A DNA stretch of 64,000 bases from NCBI RefSeq assembly GCF_018069865.1, contig NZ_JAGQDG010000003.1, positions 248,001 to 312,000 of the forward strand. The letters run 5' to 3'. Positions 33,910-38,747 of the stretch are shown here, piece after piece. A program made the position numbers and the translations under genes. Origin of the DNA: Ideonella paludis (GTDB lineage Bacteria > Pseudomonadota > Gammaproteobacteria > Burkholderiales > Burkholderiaceae_C). Below the pieces are notes generated by a model that saw only the letters and a list, made by a program, of their open reading frames with translations, did not search any database and had not been told where the DNA came from. Every line of letters begins with the position of its first letter. Position 1 is the first letter of the stretch.

Positions 33910-35730
33910 ATGAGCTGGGACTACCGTGCACCGCTGCGCGACATGCGCTTTGTGATCGAGCAGGTGCTGCAAGCCCCCCGGGGCTGGCAGGCCTGCCCCG
34001 AGTGGCAAGAGCTGGACGCCGAGACGGCCGGGGCCATCCTGCAAGAAGGCGCGCGGTTTGCGCGCGAGGTCTTGCTGCCGCTCAATGCCAGCGGCGACGC
34101 TCAAGGCTGCACCCGTGGCCCAAGCGGCGCCGTGCGCACGCCCGAGGGCTTCCCAGCGGCCTACCGCGCCTTTGTGGAAGGCGGCTGGCCCGCCTTGCCC
34201 TGTGCGCCCGAGTGGGGCGGCCAGGGCCTGCCCCTGCTGCTGGATGCGGCCGTGCGAGAGATGCTCATCGCCTGCAACCAAGCCTGGGAGATGTACCCCG
34301 ACTTGCTGCATGGCGCGTATGAAACCATCAAGGGCCATGCCCGCCCGGCACAGCAAGACTGGTGCTTGGCCAAGCTGGTCAGCGGTGAGTGGCTGGCCGC
34401 CATGGCCCTGACCGAGCCCCAGGCCGGCAGCGACCTCGGGCTGCTCAGCACCCGCGCCGTGCCCGACGCCAGCTTCGAGGCCGATGGTGCGCTGCGCGTG
34501 ACGGGCGACAAGATCTTCATCTCGGGTGGCGACCATGACCTGAGCGACAACATCATCCACCTGGTGCTGTGCCGCCTGCCTGATGCGCCCCCCGGCACCC
34601 GGGGCATTTCCTTGGCCCTGGTGCCCAAGGTCTTGCCCGATGGCCAGCTCAACACGATGAGCTGCACCGGCCTGGAACACAAAATGGGCATCCACGGCAG
34701 CGCCACCTGCGCCATGCGTTACGAAGGCGCGCACGGCTGGCTGGTGGGTGCGCCGCACAAGGGCCTGGGTGCGATGTTCTTGATGATGAACTCCGCCCGC
34801 CTGCATGTGGGCCTGCAAGGCTTGGCGCATTTGGAGATGGCCGGCCAGAACGCGCTGCGCTATGCCTTTGAGCGCTTGCAAATGCGCGCGGCCGTGCGGC
34901 CTGAAATTCGTGCGGCCATGCGGCCCGAGGGGGCCAAGTCGGCCGCTGACCCCATCGCCCTGCACCCCGCCATGCGCCACGCCTTGCTCAAGGTACAGGC
35001 GCTGACCGAGGCCCAGCGCGTCATCGCCTATCGCGCGGCCCAATGCATTGACGAAGGCCACCACCATCCTGACGCCGCGTTGCGCGAGCGCGCCCTCAAG
35101 CTGGCCGCTTTGCTGACCCCGGTGGTCAAAGCTGCGCTCACGCACAACGGCTTTCACGGCACCAGCGACGCACTGCAAGTCTTTGGCGGCTATGGCTTTG
35201 TGGTCGAGACGGGCGTGGAGCAATCCTTGCGCGATGCCCGCATCGCGATGATTTACGAAGGCACCAACGAGATCCAGGCCATCGACCTGCTGCAGCGCAA
35301 AGTGCTGGTCGACGGCGGCTTGGCGCTCGGCCTCTTGCTAGACGACCTGGAGGCCGAAGCCCAGTGCTGCGAGGCAGCCCCCGCACTCGCCCCCTTTGCC
35401 CAGGCCTTGCGCGCGCACTGCCAGCACACGCGCGCGGCCACGGCTGCGCTGATGGAGCGCACCAGTACCAGCACCAGCACCGCTGCTGACCCAGAAGCCG
35501 CGCTGCGCGTGGCCGACGACTACCTCTGGGGCCTGACCCACACCCTCTATGCCTGGGCCTTTGCCGCCAGCGCCCGCGCCGCCACCCAAGAGCCCGACAC
35601 CCCCTGGGCCCAGGCCAAGACCGAGCGCATGCGCTATGGTGTGGACTGGCTGCTGCCCATGGCCCAGGTCCACTGGCACCGGGTGCATGCGGTCGCATTA
35701 CCCTTGCCTGCGTTGGCCCTGCCGGAGTGA
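33910..35730 (+). CDS. Acyl-CoA dehydrogenase, long DmdC/FadE-like type
   Basis: 606-residue FAD-dependent acyl-CoA dehydrogenase with the N-terminal segment YRAPLRDMRFVIEQVL and a C-terminal extension found in the DmdC-like subgroup. FAD/substrate region MALTEPQAGSDLG and catalytic Glu in IYEGTNEIQAIDLLQRKVL (about residue 457). Would convert an arylpropionyl-CoA to the arylacryloyl-CoA fed to the crotonase, so that saturated side chains also enter the pathway (inference). Confidence 0.92.
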   Translation: MSWDYRAPLRDMRFVIEQVLQAPRGWQACPEWQELDAETAGAILQEGARFAREVLLPLNASGDAQGCTRGPSGAVRTPEGFPAAYRAFVEGGWPALPCAPEWGGQGLPLLLDAAVREMLIACNQAWEMYPDLLHGAYETIKGHARPAQQDWCLAKLVSGEWLAAMALTEPQAGSDLGLLSTRAVPDASFEADGALRVTGDKIFISGGDHDLSDNIIHLVLCRLPDAPPGTRGISLALVPKVLPDGQLNTMSCTGLEHKMGIHGSATCAMRYEGAHGWLVGAPHKGLGAMFLMMNSARLHVGLQGLAHLEMAGQNALRYAFERLQMRAAVRPEIRAAMRPEGAKSAADPIALHPAMRHALLKVQALTEAQRVIAYRAAQCIDEGHHHPDAALRERALKLAALLTPVVKAALTHNGFHGTSDALQVFGGYGFVVETGVEQSLRDARIAMIYEGTNEIQAIDLLQRKVLVDGGLALGLLLDDLEAEAQCCEAAPALAPFAQALRAHCQHTRAATAALMERTSTSTSTAADPEAALRVADDYLWGLTHTLYAWAFAASARAATQEPDTPWAQAKTERMRYGVDWLLPMAQVHWHRVHAVALPLPALALPE

Positions 35731-35788
35731 TCTCTGCGCTGCTCGGCGCGGGGCGTCTCCACGTGCCACCTTTAACGCTTTCGCGCTC

Positions 35789-36226
35789 ATGAAATTCGCT
35801 GACTTCCACGAAGGCCAGGTCATCACCGCTGGCCCCTACCACCTCAGCCAAGACGAGGTGCTGCAGTTCGCCAACACTTACGACCCCCAGTGGTTCCACA
35901 CCGACCCAGAGGCCGCCGCCCAAGGCATCCACGGCGGCCTGATCGCCAGCGGCTGGCAGACCTGCGGCATCGCCATGCGCTTGGTCGCACTTGCTGCGCT
36001 GCAAGGGTCAGAGTCCTTTGCCTCGCCGGGTCTCGCCTACGTCAAATGGCTGCACCCCGTGCGCCCCGGCGACGCGCTGAGCGTCAAAGCCACCGTGCTG
36101 CAAACCCGCAGCTCCGCCAGCAAGCCGGACCTCGGCATCTTGCGCTGGCGCTGGCAGCTCTACAACCAGAATGAGGTAGAGGTGCTGGACTTGGAGGCGA
36201 CGAGTTTGTTCAAGTTGGTTGTCTAG
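35789..36226 (+). CDS. MaoC-family dehydratase
   Basis: Hot-dog fold (R)-specific enoyl-CoA hydratase-like protein, 145 residues. The catalytic Asp/His pair is in DPQWFHTDPEAAAQ, followed by GGLIASGWQT, the typical MaoC block. ATG at 35789 (MKFADFHEGQVI) chosen; the frame is open further upstream inside the acyl-CoA dehydrogenase gene. Last gene of the side-chain cluster. It may supply an alternative hydration stereochemistry. Confidence 0.88.
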   Translation: MKFADFHEGQVITAGPYHLSQDEVLQFANTYDPQWFHTDPEAAAQGIHGGLIASGWQTCGIAMRLVALAALQGSESFASPGLAYVKWLHPVRPGDALSVKATVLQTRSSASKPDLGILRWRWQLYNQNEVEVLDLEATSLFKLVV

Positions 36227-36306
36227 ACCACCCTGCGCTTCGCAGGTGCTTCTGGAGAACCGCGCGGTGAAGGCTTTGCCCGTAGCGCATGCATGGCGGT
36301 AGCCAA

Positions 36307-36373
36307 TGAGCCGCACTGCGTCAAATTCGGCTCAAAAAATGAGCCGAATGTGTGAGAATGCGGCTCATGAGCC
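36307..36373. promoter_or_regulatory. Regular TGAGCCG/CGGCTCA repeat array at the Fic gene start
   Basis: Two exact copies of TGAGCCG-N14-CGGCTCA (36307-36334 and 36340-36367), separated by AAAAA (36335-36339). A fifth half-site TGAGCC (36368-36373) abuts the second copy to form the palindrome GGCTCATGAGCC. The unit repeats every 33 bases. The N14 sequences differ between copies, so only the half-sites are conserved, as expected for protein-binding sites. The array runs into the possible start codons of the Fic gene, pointing to autoregulation. Confidence 0.75.
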
Positions 36374-37530
36374 CCAAGATGCCATGGATTTGGCAGCAGC
36401 CTGATTGGCCCCGCCTGAGTGTCGATGCACAGCGCATCGCGCCTGATTTGGCGCTGGCGCATCGCTGGTGGGGTGTGCTCGAAGGCAAGGTGGCGGCCAT
36501 TGGCTTGCCAAGCGGCCAGCAGATCGTGCTGGAGGCCTGGGCCGATGAGGTGCTGGCCACGGCGGAGATTGAAGGTCAGCGGCTGCCCTTGGAGGCTGTT
36601 CGCTCTTCGGTGATGCGCCGCTTGGGCCTTTCACAATCCCCTGGCCCGCAAGATAGGCATGTGGACGGCTTGGTCGAGGTGCTGGGCGATGCCAGCACGG
36701 CCTTTCAGCAGCCTCTCACAGAAGACCGGCTCTGCCGCTGGCAGTCGGCGCTGTTTCCTGGGGGAGTTTCGGGCATCCAGCGCATCGCCGTGGGGCGCTT
36801 GCGTGATCATGACGATCCCATGCAGATCGTCAGTGGTACGCTGGGCCGCGAAGTGGTGCACTACGAAGCGCCACCTTCCAAGCAGGTGGGGCGAGAGTTG
36901 CAACAGTTTCTGGATTGGTTTGCGGCCACCACACCTCCTCCCTCGGCACCGAGCGCCTCAGGCATGGACGCTCTGGTTCGGGCTGCCTTGGCGCACCTAT
37001 GGTTTGAAAGCATTCACCCCTTTGAGGACGGCAACGGCCGCATTGGTCGGGCGATTGTGGACATGACTCTGGCACAACACATGGGCCAACCGCTGAGGCT
37101 CTGCAGTCTGTCGCGTCAACTGATGAGGTTTCGCAAGGATTACTACGACGCGCTCAATCAAGCCCAACGCGGCCCTTGCGATGTGAGTCTTTGGGTGCAG
37201 TGGTTCGCGCAGCAATGGGCGCAAGCTTGCCAATCGGCCAGTCAGGTCATTGACCAAGTGATCTTGAAGCGCCGCTTCTGGGAGACACATGCCGACATCA
37301 ACCTGCATGAGCGGCAGCGCAAAGTGTTGCAGCGCTTGCTGGACGACGGTGACGGGGGCTTTCTGGGCGGGCTCAATGCCGACAAGTACATGAGGATGAC
37401 CGGCGTATCCAAAGCCACCGCCACGCGAGACCTCAGCCAAATGGCGAGGGCCGGCCAACTTCGCAGCCATGGCGTGGGAAAGGCTGTGCGCTATGTGGTC
37501 AATGTGCCTGAATGGACGCACGGACTTTGA
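36367..37530 (+). CDS. Fic-family protein (probable AMPylase) with N-terminal inhibitory helix and C-terminal winged helix
   Basis: Transfers AMP (or a similar moiety) to a target hydroxyl. Fic core HPFEDGNGRIGR (about residues 217-228). An inhibitory (S/T)xxxE(G/N) motif, TAEIEG at about 65-70, precedes the Fic core, so this is a class II, self-inhibited Fic. The N-terminus WIWQQPDWP matches the DUF4172 domain, and the C-terminus (VSKATATRDLSQMARAGQL) is a winged HTH that could bind the repeat array upstream. Starts at 36358, 36367 or 36379 are all possible. No antitoxin gene is adjacent. Target unknown. Confidence 0.9.
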   Translation: MSPKMPWIWQQPDWPRLSVDAQRIAPDLALAHRWWGVLEGKVAAIGLPSGQQIVLEAWADEVLATAEIEGQRLPLEAVRSSVMRRLGLSQSPGPQDRHVDGLVEVLGDASTAFQQPLTEDRLCRWQSALFPGGVSGIQRIAVGRLRDHDDPMQIVSGTLGREVVHYEAPPSKQVGRELQQFLDWFAATTPPPSAPSASGMDALVRAALAHLWFESIHPFEDGNGRIGRAIVDMTLAQHMGQPLRLCSLSRQLMRFRKDYYDALNQAQRGPCDVSLWVQWFAQQWAQACQSASQVIDQVILKRRFWETHADINLHERQRKVLQRLLDDGDGGFLGGLNADKYMRMTGVSKATATRDLSQMARAGQLRSHGVGKAVRYVVNVPEWTHGL

Positions 37531-37636
37531 GCAGCCCAAGCGATTGAAGCGCTGCAGTGATTCTCACTGAGGCGAGTCTGCCCTATCCATCAGTGGCCGT
37601 GCTCGATCGAGCCCTTCGTGGCGCCTCTCTGAAAGG

Positions 37637-37870
37637 CTAGGTCGTACCCGCTGCACACGCCGCACACAGACACGCCTTGCCCCGGCTCTCCACTGGAATC
37701 CGCTCTAACGCCCCCGGCGCGATCTTGACAGTGGTGCACCAGCACACCACCTCAAAGCTGCCGGCAGCAGCAGGTGCGCAGCGGTTAGGCTCGCCGCATA
37801 AGGGGCAGGTGGGGGCGCAGGTGGGCTGTGTCGTGCAGGCGCCGGCGTTGGGCATGGGGTGCGGTGTCAT
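37637..37870 (-). CDS. Cysteine-rich CWC family protein
   Basis: 77-residue cysteine-rich protein (CPLCGEPNRC, VVCWCTTV, CLCAAC), matching the CWC family found in beta- and gamma-proteobacteria. Likely metal-binding; no biochemical role known. The ATG overlaps the stop of the upstream GNAT gene (ATGA at 37867-37870), so it is translated with it. The palindrome GCTCGATCGAGC (37601-37612) lies downstream. Confidence 0.85.
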   Translation of the reverse strand: MTPHPMPNAGACTTQPTCAPTCPLCGEPNRCAPAAAGSFEVVCWCTTVKIAPGALERIPVESRGKACLCAACAAGTT

Positions 37871-38466
37871 GGCTTGCTGCGTTGGGTCTGTGAAGCCGCC
37901 AGCCACTCGTCGCGCAGCAGCCCCCAGATGTGGGTGTCATAGGTCTTCCCTTTGGCCGTCCAGCGCTGCCGCAGCGTGCCTTCTCGCGTAAAGCCCAGTC
38001 GTTGCAGCAGCGCGTTCGAGGCCGTGTTGAGCGGGTTGGCTTCGGCCTCCATGCGGCGCAGGCCTTCGGTGGCCCCAGCACCCGCGTGGCGGGCCAAGGC
38101 GTGGTCGAGCAGGGCGCTCAGGGCCTCACGCATCAGGCCTTGGCCCCAGTGGGCTTGGCTCATCAAATAGCCCAGTTCGGCCCGGGCGCTGGCTTCGTCA
38201 TACTTGAAGATCACGGCCGCACCGATCACCTCACCCGACTCGCGCCGGGTGACCACCCACTGCTGGGTGCCGCCGGTGGCTTGCAGGCCTTCAATGCGTG
38301 TGAGCCAAGCCTCGGCATCCGACATGCTTTGCCAGCTTGCATACGGCAGGTGGTGGGTGACGCGGTCGTCCGCGTTGATGGGAAGCAGCTGCGTCAAGTC
38401 GGCGGCGGTGACGCCACGCACGGTCAGGCGCGAGGTGTGCAGCGGGGTGATGGGGATGAGGGGCAT
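37867..38466 (-). CDS. GNAT N-acetyltransferase (RimJ/RimL type)
   Basis: 199 residues. The N-terminus LHTSRLTVRGVTAADLTQLL and the C-terminal LNTASNALLQRLGFTREGTLRQ are those of ribosomal-protein-alanine acetyltransferase-like GNATs that modify N-termini or small amines. The acetyl-CoA loop is in HWGQGLMREALSALL. Substrate not assignable. Upstream partner of the CWC gene. Confidence 0.9.
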   Translation of the reverse strand: MPLIPITPLHTSRLTVRGVTAADLTQLLPINADDRVTHHLPYASWQSMSDAEAWLTRIEGLQATGGTQQWVVTRRESGEVIGAAVIFKYDEASARAELGYLMSQAHWGQGLMREALSALLDHALARHAGAGATEGLRRMEAEANPLNTASNALLQRLGFTREGTLRQRWTAKGKTYDTHIWGLLRDEWLAASQTQRSKP

Positions 38467-38483
38467 GGGTGCATCAACGCTGT

Positions 38484-38747
38484 TTAAGTGCCAATGCTAG
38501 TGTTGCCATGGACGTCAAATGAGTCATCCAGCAGTGGAGTCGCTGCCTCCCATGCGGCAATCAGCACCTTGGCCTGCTGCAACTGCTCATCGGGGACTTG
38601 GATGCGCACCATGGGCTCCGCGGGGAGCAGGCCTGCAGCCCCTTGCAGATAGCCTCCCAGAATGTGGCACTCCACACCTTCTTCGCGCAGCAAGTCGCAC
38701 AGGATTTGGGCATCCGCTGCGTTCGCAGCATGGTAGGCGGTTTGCAT
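38484..38747 (-). CDS. DUF2007 domain protein
   Basis: 87 residues, whole-length match in pattern to DUF2007 (N-terminal AANAADAQILCDLLREEGVE, central VRIQVPDEQLQQAKVLI). Small ferredoxin-like fold proteins of unknown function, sometimes called putative signal-transducing proteins. In a run of four minus-strand genes with two GNATs and CWC. Confidence 0.8.
   Translation of the reverse strand: MQTAYHAANAADAQILCDLLREEGVECHILGGYLQGAAGLLPAEPMVRIQVPDEQLQQAKVLIAAWEAATPLLDDSFDVHGNTSIGT

Follow-up and report, generated by a model that had tools for sequence, protein, structure and literature searches.

A half-site array at the start of DUF4172-Fic genes: probable self-operator, and its occurrence without Fic in viral contigs

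Fic proteins that carry a helix-turn-helix (HTH) domain can act on their own genes. In Yersinia pseudotuberculosis, a dimer of the Fic-HTH effector CccR represses its own promoter at AGATAATCAT-N26-ATGATAATCT (PMC9755527). Self-repression by such a protein is already known; the new parts considered here are a half-site array, its reading code, and its spread. The array occupies positions 36307-36373 of a 64,000-nucleotide stretch of Ideonella paludis DNA (the window, analysed as a whole), where it leads into the gene for a DUF4172-Fic protein. With a probability of roughly 0.86, it is the operator of that protein's own promoter, self-repressed through the C-terminal winged helix.

Two further systems are close. 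CbFic2 of Coxiella burnetii dimerises on DNA of at least 20 bp, and its authors propose a switch from AMPylation to de-AMPylation (PMC10628234). The SoFic proteins of anti-phage defence are class II, single-gene Fic proteins (PMC12249575). An earlier note, made from the window's sequence alone, had taken the array to be undescribed. Neither the array nor its phage copies were found described in the open-access literature searched; self-repression by a Fic-HTH protein, known from CccR, is not new in principle. The earlier note also lacked what now appears as a second theme: the unit occurs without Fic in viral contigs and some chromosomes.

The array in the window and across the family

The array consists of TGAGCCG-N14-CGGCTCA, twice, with AAAAA between the two copies and a fifth, partial half-site fused on. 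This description, as first proposed, withstands a count: the pattern TGAGCCGN{10,18}CGGCTCA matches twice in the 64-kb window against 0.01 expected, and two or more matches occurred in none of 100 shuffles. The TGAGCCG 7-mer alone occurs 20 times in the window against 16.7 expected and so shows no enrichment; the unusual feature is the arrangement. A pattern search of the whole 4.8-Mb genome found no second array, and elsewhere only two single palindromes: one with N11, between two long open reading frames (ORFs) and overlapping the stop of the first; and one with N15, within an ORF of 344 amino acids.

In relatives, the half-site extends beyond TGAGCCG into bases of AAT/ATT type, as in the TGAGCCGAATA of Pseudomonas members; the window retains part of this longer form at half-sites 2 to 4. 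The N14 spacers, first described as unrelated, are to that extent not wholly so. The two half-sites of one unit lie 21 bp apart, centre to centre, which is two helical turns. The proposed placement on one face of the DNA holds within a unit but not exactly between units, since the 33-bp period corresponds to 3.14 turns at 10.5 bp per turn.

Relatives of the Fic gene were present in 15 of 60 near genomes, 106 of 399 family genomes, and 80 of 398 phylum genomes (three overlapping sets); from named genomes, the best 80 of 569 relatives (at least 569 of 589 candidate stretches) were used. Among 232 loci with a match, three were dropped: L199, for its short upstream region, and L128 and L020, for a missing N-terminal part. 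Removal of 11 duplicate upstreams from the remaining 229 left 218 distinct upstream regions.

Inverted repeats with arms of at least 8 are present in 163 of these 218 regions, compared with 37 of 218 control stretches further upstream and 24 of 218 shuffles. With half-sites sorted into eight classes, 195 of the regions contain two or more exact sites of a single class. Where a full control stretch was available (169 rows), the best of the eight classes gave two or more exact half-sites in 147 upstream regions and one control, and three or more in 96 and none. Chance as the origin of the array is rejected by these counts, by the 0.01 expectation in the window, and by the near-zero numbers of wrong-geometry patterns described below. 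The suggestion that homologues should share the repeat has thus fared mostly well.

The classes, into which every region was placed by best fit, weak ones included, are TGCGGNGA (137), TGAGCCG (37), TGAAGCG (20), TGAGTCGA (14), TGATATGA (5), TGCGGATA (3), and two singles. Across the family, geometry is constant while the half-site sequence switches. With sites of up to one mismatch, the convergent gap is 13 bp in 174/214 cases for TGCGGNGA and 15/20 for TGAGTCGA, 15 bp in 28/31 for TGAAGCG, and either 14 bp (37) or 15 bp (27) among 64 cases for TGAGCCG. The divergent gap is 5 bp in 174/202 (TGCGGNGA) and 30/41 (TGAGCCG), and 4 or 5 bp in 17/18 (TGAAGCG). Once half-site length is taken into account, most of these amount to a single palindrome of 29 bp, with a 28-bp form in the window's branch. 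The N14 spacing is the rule for that branch, whereas most of the family uses the 29-bp form with period 34.

A unit that recurs is a triple of half-sites, in which a forward site is followed after 13 to 15 bp by a reverse site and, 5 bp further on, by another forward site. In the TGCGGNGA class, an extra 20-bp tandem step is frequent (the commonest same-strand distances are 34, 54, 33, 20, and 88), an arrangement that reads as two triples. One relative, 78% identical, has in its genome a second TGAGCCG triple (L248:1500-1540), about 770 bp upstream of its Fic gene and beside an opposite-strand ORF that, judged from sequence alone, resembles a HigA-type antitoxin.

Reading code, promoter, and protein

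What reads the array? The earlier note had suggested the winged helix at the C-terminus of the downstream protein, and covariation points the same way. In the AlphaFold2 model this domain has the order helix-helix-helix-strand-strand, and the third helix spans residues 354-366. For the four main half-site classes, residues 358 and 354 rank top, among the columns tested, in mutual information with class. Lysine 354 with threonine 358 accompanies TGAGCCG in 31 of 31 rows and occurs in none of the 159 others. Agreement between helix and half-site is similarly close in the other classes: K354+T358 with TGAGCCG, 190/190 rows; R354+Y/F358 with TGAAGCG, 190/190; D355 with TGCGGNGA, 188/190; and R354+S358 with TGAGTCGA, 189/190.

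These rows were placed on a FastTree tree built without the winged helix from 190 of the 218: those with at least two exact half-sites, more than 200 residues before the winged helix, and residues 354 and 358 present. On this tree, the TGAGCCG rows form two clades far from each other, of 19 and 10 rows, with two single rows besides; TGAAGCG has two clades, of 11 and 8 rows. A residue common to the two large TGAGCCG clades yet rare outside them is found at just three columns, 343, 354, and 358, each within the winged helix; the same comparison of the TGAAGCG clades returns column 354 alone. With the array at one end of the gene and the winged helix at the other, a swapped block is an unlikely cause. 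Since half-site class tracks the recognition-helix residues even in distant branches, the Fic protein's own winged helix very probably reads the array.

Placement suggests the consequence. As first claimed, the last sites overlap the start codon: half-site 4 runs into the ATG at 36367. The last half-site is fused to an in-frame ATG in 22/37 TGAGCCG loci, 84/137 TGCGGNGA loci, 2/14 TGAGTCGA loci, and 10/20 TGAAGCG loci, and half-sites within the gene also occur in relatives (L023, with one mismatch; L009, GCGGCGATTA). In the ATG-fused loci, a −10-like hexamer (for TGAGCCG, at least a 4/6 match to TATAAT) stands at one distance: 7 nt in 20/22 TGAGCCG loci, 6 nt in 81/84 TGCGGNGA loci, and 7 nt in 9/10 TGAAGCG loci. 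A Shine-Dalgarno-like 5-mer was found in none of the 116 ATG-fused loci of these three classes. (In three relatives, L205, L206, and L224, the linker between half-sites is itself Shine-Dalgarno-like.) The fixed distance and the missing ribosome-binding motif point to a transcript that starts at or near the ATG, as a leaderless mRNA; the operator apparently covers the −10 element, the start site, and the start codon. A last half-site that often spans both −10 and start codon implies self-repression.

This suggests a general model. Dimers of the DUF4172-Fic protein would bind the array through the C-terminal winged helix, one helix per half-site; within a unit, the paired sites are separated by two turns of the DNA. 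At the end of the array, the half-sites would cover the −10 element together with the transcription start and start codon of the apparently leaderless mRNA, and bound protein would shut off its own synthesis. Repression would keep scarce a self-inhibited and potentially toxic AMP-transferase. Binding, dimer use, repression, leaderless transcription, and toxicity are predictions of this model, whereas sequence, geometry, family conservation, covariation, and the placement of ATG and −10-like hexamer are directly observed. The one-gene autoregulated module proposed at the outset is a supported, if indirect, deduction. The array also gives a testable account of how a Fic protein that is self-contained might be kept silent.

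Several points weigh against this model. The half-site class list was drawn up by inspecting the same sequences to which it was applied; 23 of the 218 upstream regions have fewer than two exact half-sites, and in L144 and L149 none is visible. At a looser cut-off, the TGAAGCG comparison adds column 235, outside the winged helix, besides column 360. A test by independent pairs was underpowered: with 3, 2, 2, and 2 pairs on supported branches, none was discordant (p 0.25 to 1), and in two of the four tests one pair showed no residue difference. A general promoter scan found no consensus promoter at the window array, and, as the −10 match overlaps with the half-site's own AAT/ATT end, the agreement on a −10 hexamer is partly not independent. 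Finally, removal of the HTH from CbFic2 did not weaken binding to 20-bp DNA (PMC10628234), and other surfaces can thus bind DNA.

Wide palindromes are common operators, and a host regulator other than the Fic protein might be the reader. The class of half-site nevertheless goes with the Fic protein's own recognition helix, which makes a foreign regulator highly improbable. That the repeats work as RNA hairpins is hardly tenable: the units might in principle fold in this way, but many loci have them ahead of the point where the transcript probably starts, the third and tandem half-sites keep their sequence with no partner, and Rfam gave no match at E≤1 within 35500-38500, by which a known structured RNA at the array is also rejected.

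The protein itself combines DUF4172 (PF13776, 3.7e-22), Fic (PF02661, 2e-14), and a C-terminal winged helix (supported by weak Pfam matches, by alignment to PDB 8CIL, and by the AlphaFold2 model) in one chain, which places it in the CbFic2-like DUF4172-Fic-wHTH (winged HTH) subfamily. The model has a mean predicted local distance difference test (pLDDT) score of 91.1, and values below 50 over at least three residues are confined to residues 1-6 of the longer frame; the winged helix comprises helices 320-332, 343-350, and 354-366, and strands 370-373 and 380-383. The inhibitory motif, (S/T)xxxE(G/N) as defined in PMC10628234, is present N-terminally, and its I73, E74, and G75 are invariant in 36 aligned relatives. 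The catalytic consensus HxFx(D/E)GN(G/K)R is matched by HPFEDGNGR at 222-230, with most positions invariant in the same relatives. By these two motifs, the protein is a class II Fic and a predicted AMP-transferase. It scores 57 bits with the NCBIfam SoFic equivalog NF046030, below the curated cut-off of 550. Other in-frame starts lie at GTG 36352, ATG 36358, and ATG 36379, and the nearest non-overlapping downstream ORF of at least 70 amino acids starts at 37637 on the opposite strand (Table 1).

Table 1. Coordinates, in window positions, of the array and of the Fic gene that follows it
Feature	Position	Strand	Remark
Half-site 1, TGAGCCG	36307..36313	+	Sequence; pattern count
Half-site 2, CGGCTCA	36328..36334	-	14 bp after half-site 1; adjoining part of longer form kept (AATTCGGCTCA)
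Linker AAAAA between divergent half-sites	36335..36339	.	5 bp, the family rule
Half-site 3, TGAGCCG	36340..36346	+	Half-sites 1-3 form the triple found also without Fic in viral contigs
Possible -10 element, GAGAAT	36354..36359	+	4/6 to TATAAT, 7 nt before ATG; tentative assignment
Half-site 4, CGGCTCA	36361..36367	-	Runs into start codon
Half-site 5, TGAGCC	36368..36373	+	Within first codons of Fic gene
Fic gene, 387 amino acids	36367..37530	+	From ATG at conserved position
Inhibitory-helix motif TAEIEG	36559..36576	+	Residues 70-75 (P0001 numbering); class II Fic
Catalytic Fic motif HPFEDGNGRIGR	37015..37050	+	Residues 222-233; intact
Winged-helix domain	37303..37506	+	About residues 318-385; Pfam (weak), 8CIL, model
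Residues K354 to T358	37411..37425	+	Start of third helix; K354 and T358 track half-site class

Units without a Fic gene

A search of the 399 family genomes for the triple itself found the TGAGCCG form in 19, the TGCGGNGA form in 31, and the reversed pattern in none. Thirty chromosomal loci per class were examined, some of them one array seen from both strands, and a DUF4172-Fic gene lies directly downstream in 25 (TGAGCCG) and 20 (TGCGGNGA). Two of the remainder, L285:1500-3041 and L289:1500-2938, carry TGCGGNGA triples 150 to 200 bp before Fic genes that lack a DUF4172 match. Two chromosomal orphan triples have different surroundings: L283:1500-1542 lies between convergent ORFs, one for a pyridine nucleotide oxidoreductase, and L250:1500-1540 lies 29 bp behind an ORF for a flavin adenine dinucleotide (FAD) oxidoreductase. 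Neither genome has a match to the window Fic at 1e-40.

Viral contigs contain the triple in 24 (TGAGCCG) and at least 120 (TGCGGNGA) cases. In the 143 loci examined (24 plus 119 of the at least 120), a Fic-type gene is directly downstream in 17 and elsewhere in the locus in 3; the remaining 123 have no Fic match, 14 of them with the unit near the locus end and 109 not. The three loci with Fic elsewhere include L350 and L377, in which an ORF with a Fic match starts 58 bp past the unit; together with L285 and L289, these suggest that other Fic families may use the same operator. Wrong-geometry patterns were found in 1, 0, and 1 viral contigs. Among the orphan viral units (L297-L440), 80 are distinct.

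These orphans resemble Fic operators beyond the pattern used to find them. At all three sites of the TGCGGNGA orphans, the bases left free by the pattern match the Fic half-site; at site 1 they do so in 19/22 and 24/31 cases, against 0.09 and 0.10 expected. The few TGAGCCG orphans have the longer half-site at most sites but not all (2/5, p 0.17; 3/8, p 0.06). Exactly three exact half-sites within 34 bp occur in 64 of 65 distinct orphans, or 50 of 65 if one mismatch is allowed. (This set, like the 66-unit set used below, covers viral loci up to L400 with near-identical units removed; the latter includes two loci in which a Fic-type gene is present, L350 and L355.) Two further classes are also found as orphans: TGAAGCG triples in five viral contigs, two beside Fic, and TGAGTCG triples in two, neither beside Fic. 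The orphans of each minor class represent one unit, with one sequence in three contigs and two slightly different sequences in the other class.

Of the 143 viral records, 50 were examined whole for Fic, which is absent from 49, and 49 for a stand-alone winged helix, which is missing from 48, the other giving one weak match (many of these records are fragments); a phage-encoded binder was rejected as a candidate on this count. A tblastn search of 50,697 phage records with the window Fic protein P0001 (1e-20) found no match, and a viral relative from a single-protein scan, one unconfirmed stretch, was set aside.

Some units have a recognisable setting. The Citrobacter phage phiNP (OR565852.1), an isolate, carries one directly behind a DNA methylase gene; related methylase genes of an Escherichia phage and a Klebsiella phage have no unit there. 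In L304, L305, L311, and L316, the triple stands between an apparent GC-rich hairpin (judged by eye) and the methylase stop codon. By blast, one methylase-type region gave 11 partial matches, and another matched phiNP in full, with no match among E. coli genomes; for one phage region of the TGCGGNGA class, no isolate was found.

A group of related phages shows how units turn over. Their polymerases are 76 to 83% identical to that of L299, and their reductases match the L312 reductase over long stretches with about 87 to 90% identity. The TGAGCCG triple lies within the family A DNA polymerase gene in L299, L302, L310, and L314, and directly behind the ribonucleotide reductase gene in L312; the TGCGGNGA triple lies within the reductase gene in L333, L396, L400, L421, and L432. 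In L312, residues differ in the corresponding stretches of both proteins. The presence of a unit seems to matter more than its position or class.

What might such units do? Possibly they act as bait or antidote: they would draw the host's Fic protein onto DNA and hold it there, bound and harmless, as a phage counter-defence. This reading is tentative, and it would supplement the self-operator rather than replace it, with the array serving as both self-repression switch and DNA antidote. It is favoured by the 123 of 143 viral loci that lack a Fic match, by the scarcity of wrong-geometry patterns, by the records that lack both Fic and winged helix, by the two further classes among orphans, by the conserved free bases of the TGCGGNGA units, and by the near-constant number of half-sites in the distinct orphans. 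The window's Fic protein also matches the PADLOC SoFic defence model (4.3e-43). Turnover of place and class within one phage group would likewise fit a bait or antidote better than control of a neighbouring gene.

Other observations pull the opposite way. DNA raised AMPylation by the CbFic2 mutant E66G (PMC10628234), and the CccR authors treat regulation and toxicity as independent (PMC9755527), so that "bound means off" draws direct support from neither system. A bait could also raise Fic synthesis. Orphans occur on bacterial chromosomes too; the longer half-site is not significant at every TGAGCCG site; and the minor-class orphans and the fragmentary viral records carry the limits given above. 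A broader version, in which the array is generally a DNA antidote (bound Fic off, free Fic toxic) and in which phages and some chromosomes use the exact three-site unit as an operator mimic to neutralise a Fic-based defence or addiction element, is held a little more tentatively. If it were true, loss of the array, as in plasmid loss, or diversion of the Fic protein would decide the fate of the cell. (Relatives at E≤1e-40 are encoded on 353 plasmid records, which would suit an addiction role.)

Orphan units might instead place phage or host genes under control of the host Fic repressor. Some units do precede genes; in L317, the unit is followed by a DUF4224 gene and one for a phage integrase. 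A simple ORF rule, however, puts 27 of 66 distinct units within long ORFs, several directly abut a stop codon, and place and class differ between close relatives; gene control is unlikely.

It is improbable as well that the units are remnants of lost Fic genes or, in part, coincidences of coding sequence. Remnants are plausible for some chromosomal cases, but a lost Fic gene does not account for units that sit within the polymerase and reductase genes of phages. Coding may contribute in the polymerase gene: the distant polymerases of L309 and L299, 36% identical, carry their TGAGCCG units at almost matching positions, 113 and 122 nt from the ATG, perhaps through shared Glu-Pro codons. The frame-keeping control with wrong spacing (N14-15) covered TGCGGNGA only and gave one match, by which in-frame coincidence is rejected for that class; the TGAGCCG control did not preserve the reading frame. 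The two phages whose related methylase genes have no unit argue further against coincidence. The phage units open a direct route to the question whether a Fic defence is countered by viruses by means of decoy DNA.

Comparison with described systems

CccR is the nearest precedent in regulation. Like the window's protein, it is a class II Fic protein with a C-terminal HTH; the inverted repeats that it binds as a dimer lie near the −35 and −10 elements of its own promoter (PMC9755527). It is a type VI secretion system effector, and its operator is one pair of 10-bp AGATAATCAT half-sites spaced by N26 (PMC9755527); the window differs in both sequence and spacing. The DUF4172-Fic family usually has 3 to 6 half-sites, separated by N13 to N15 and N5, and its arrays have other sequences and run into the start codon. 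A footprint known from one species is thereby extended to a family-wide operator grammar with a reading code.

CbFic2 is the closest relative of solved structure (PDB 8CIL, E 1.7e-95) and likewise joins DUF4172, Fic, and wHTH. In the excerpts available, it is studied with arbitrary DNA, with no operator reported, and is described as acting on histone H3 (PMC10628234). The E. coli SoFic system has a small antitoxin, AS1, and the corresponding excerpts describe no operator of its own (PMC12249575).

For the orphan units, the closest parallel is the pseudo-ToxI of phage PhiTE, in which phage-borne copies of a repetitive antitoxin element permit escape from a suicide system (PMC3475682). Pseudo-ToxI is an RNA mimic (PMC3475682). 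Here the thing mimicked would be a DNA operator of predicted function, and counter-defence, if this is what the units provide, would be exerted by a piece of DNA instead of a protein or an RNA.
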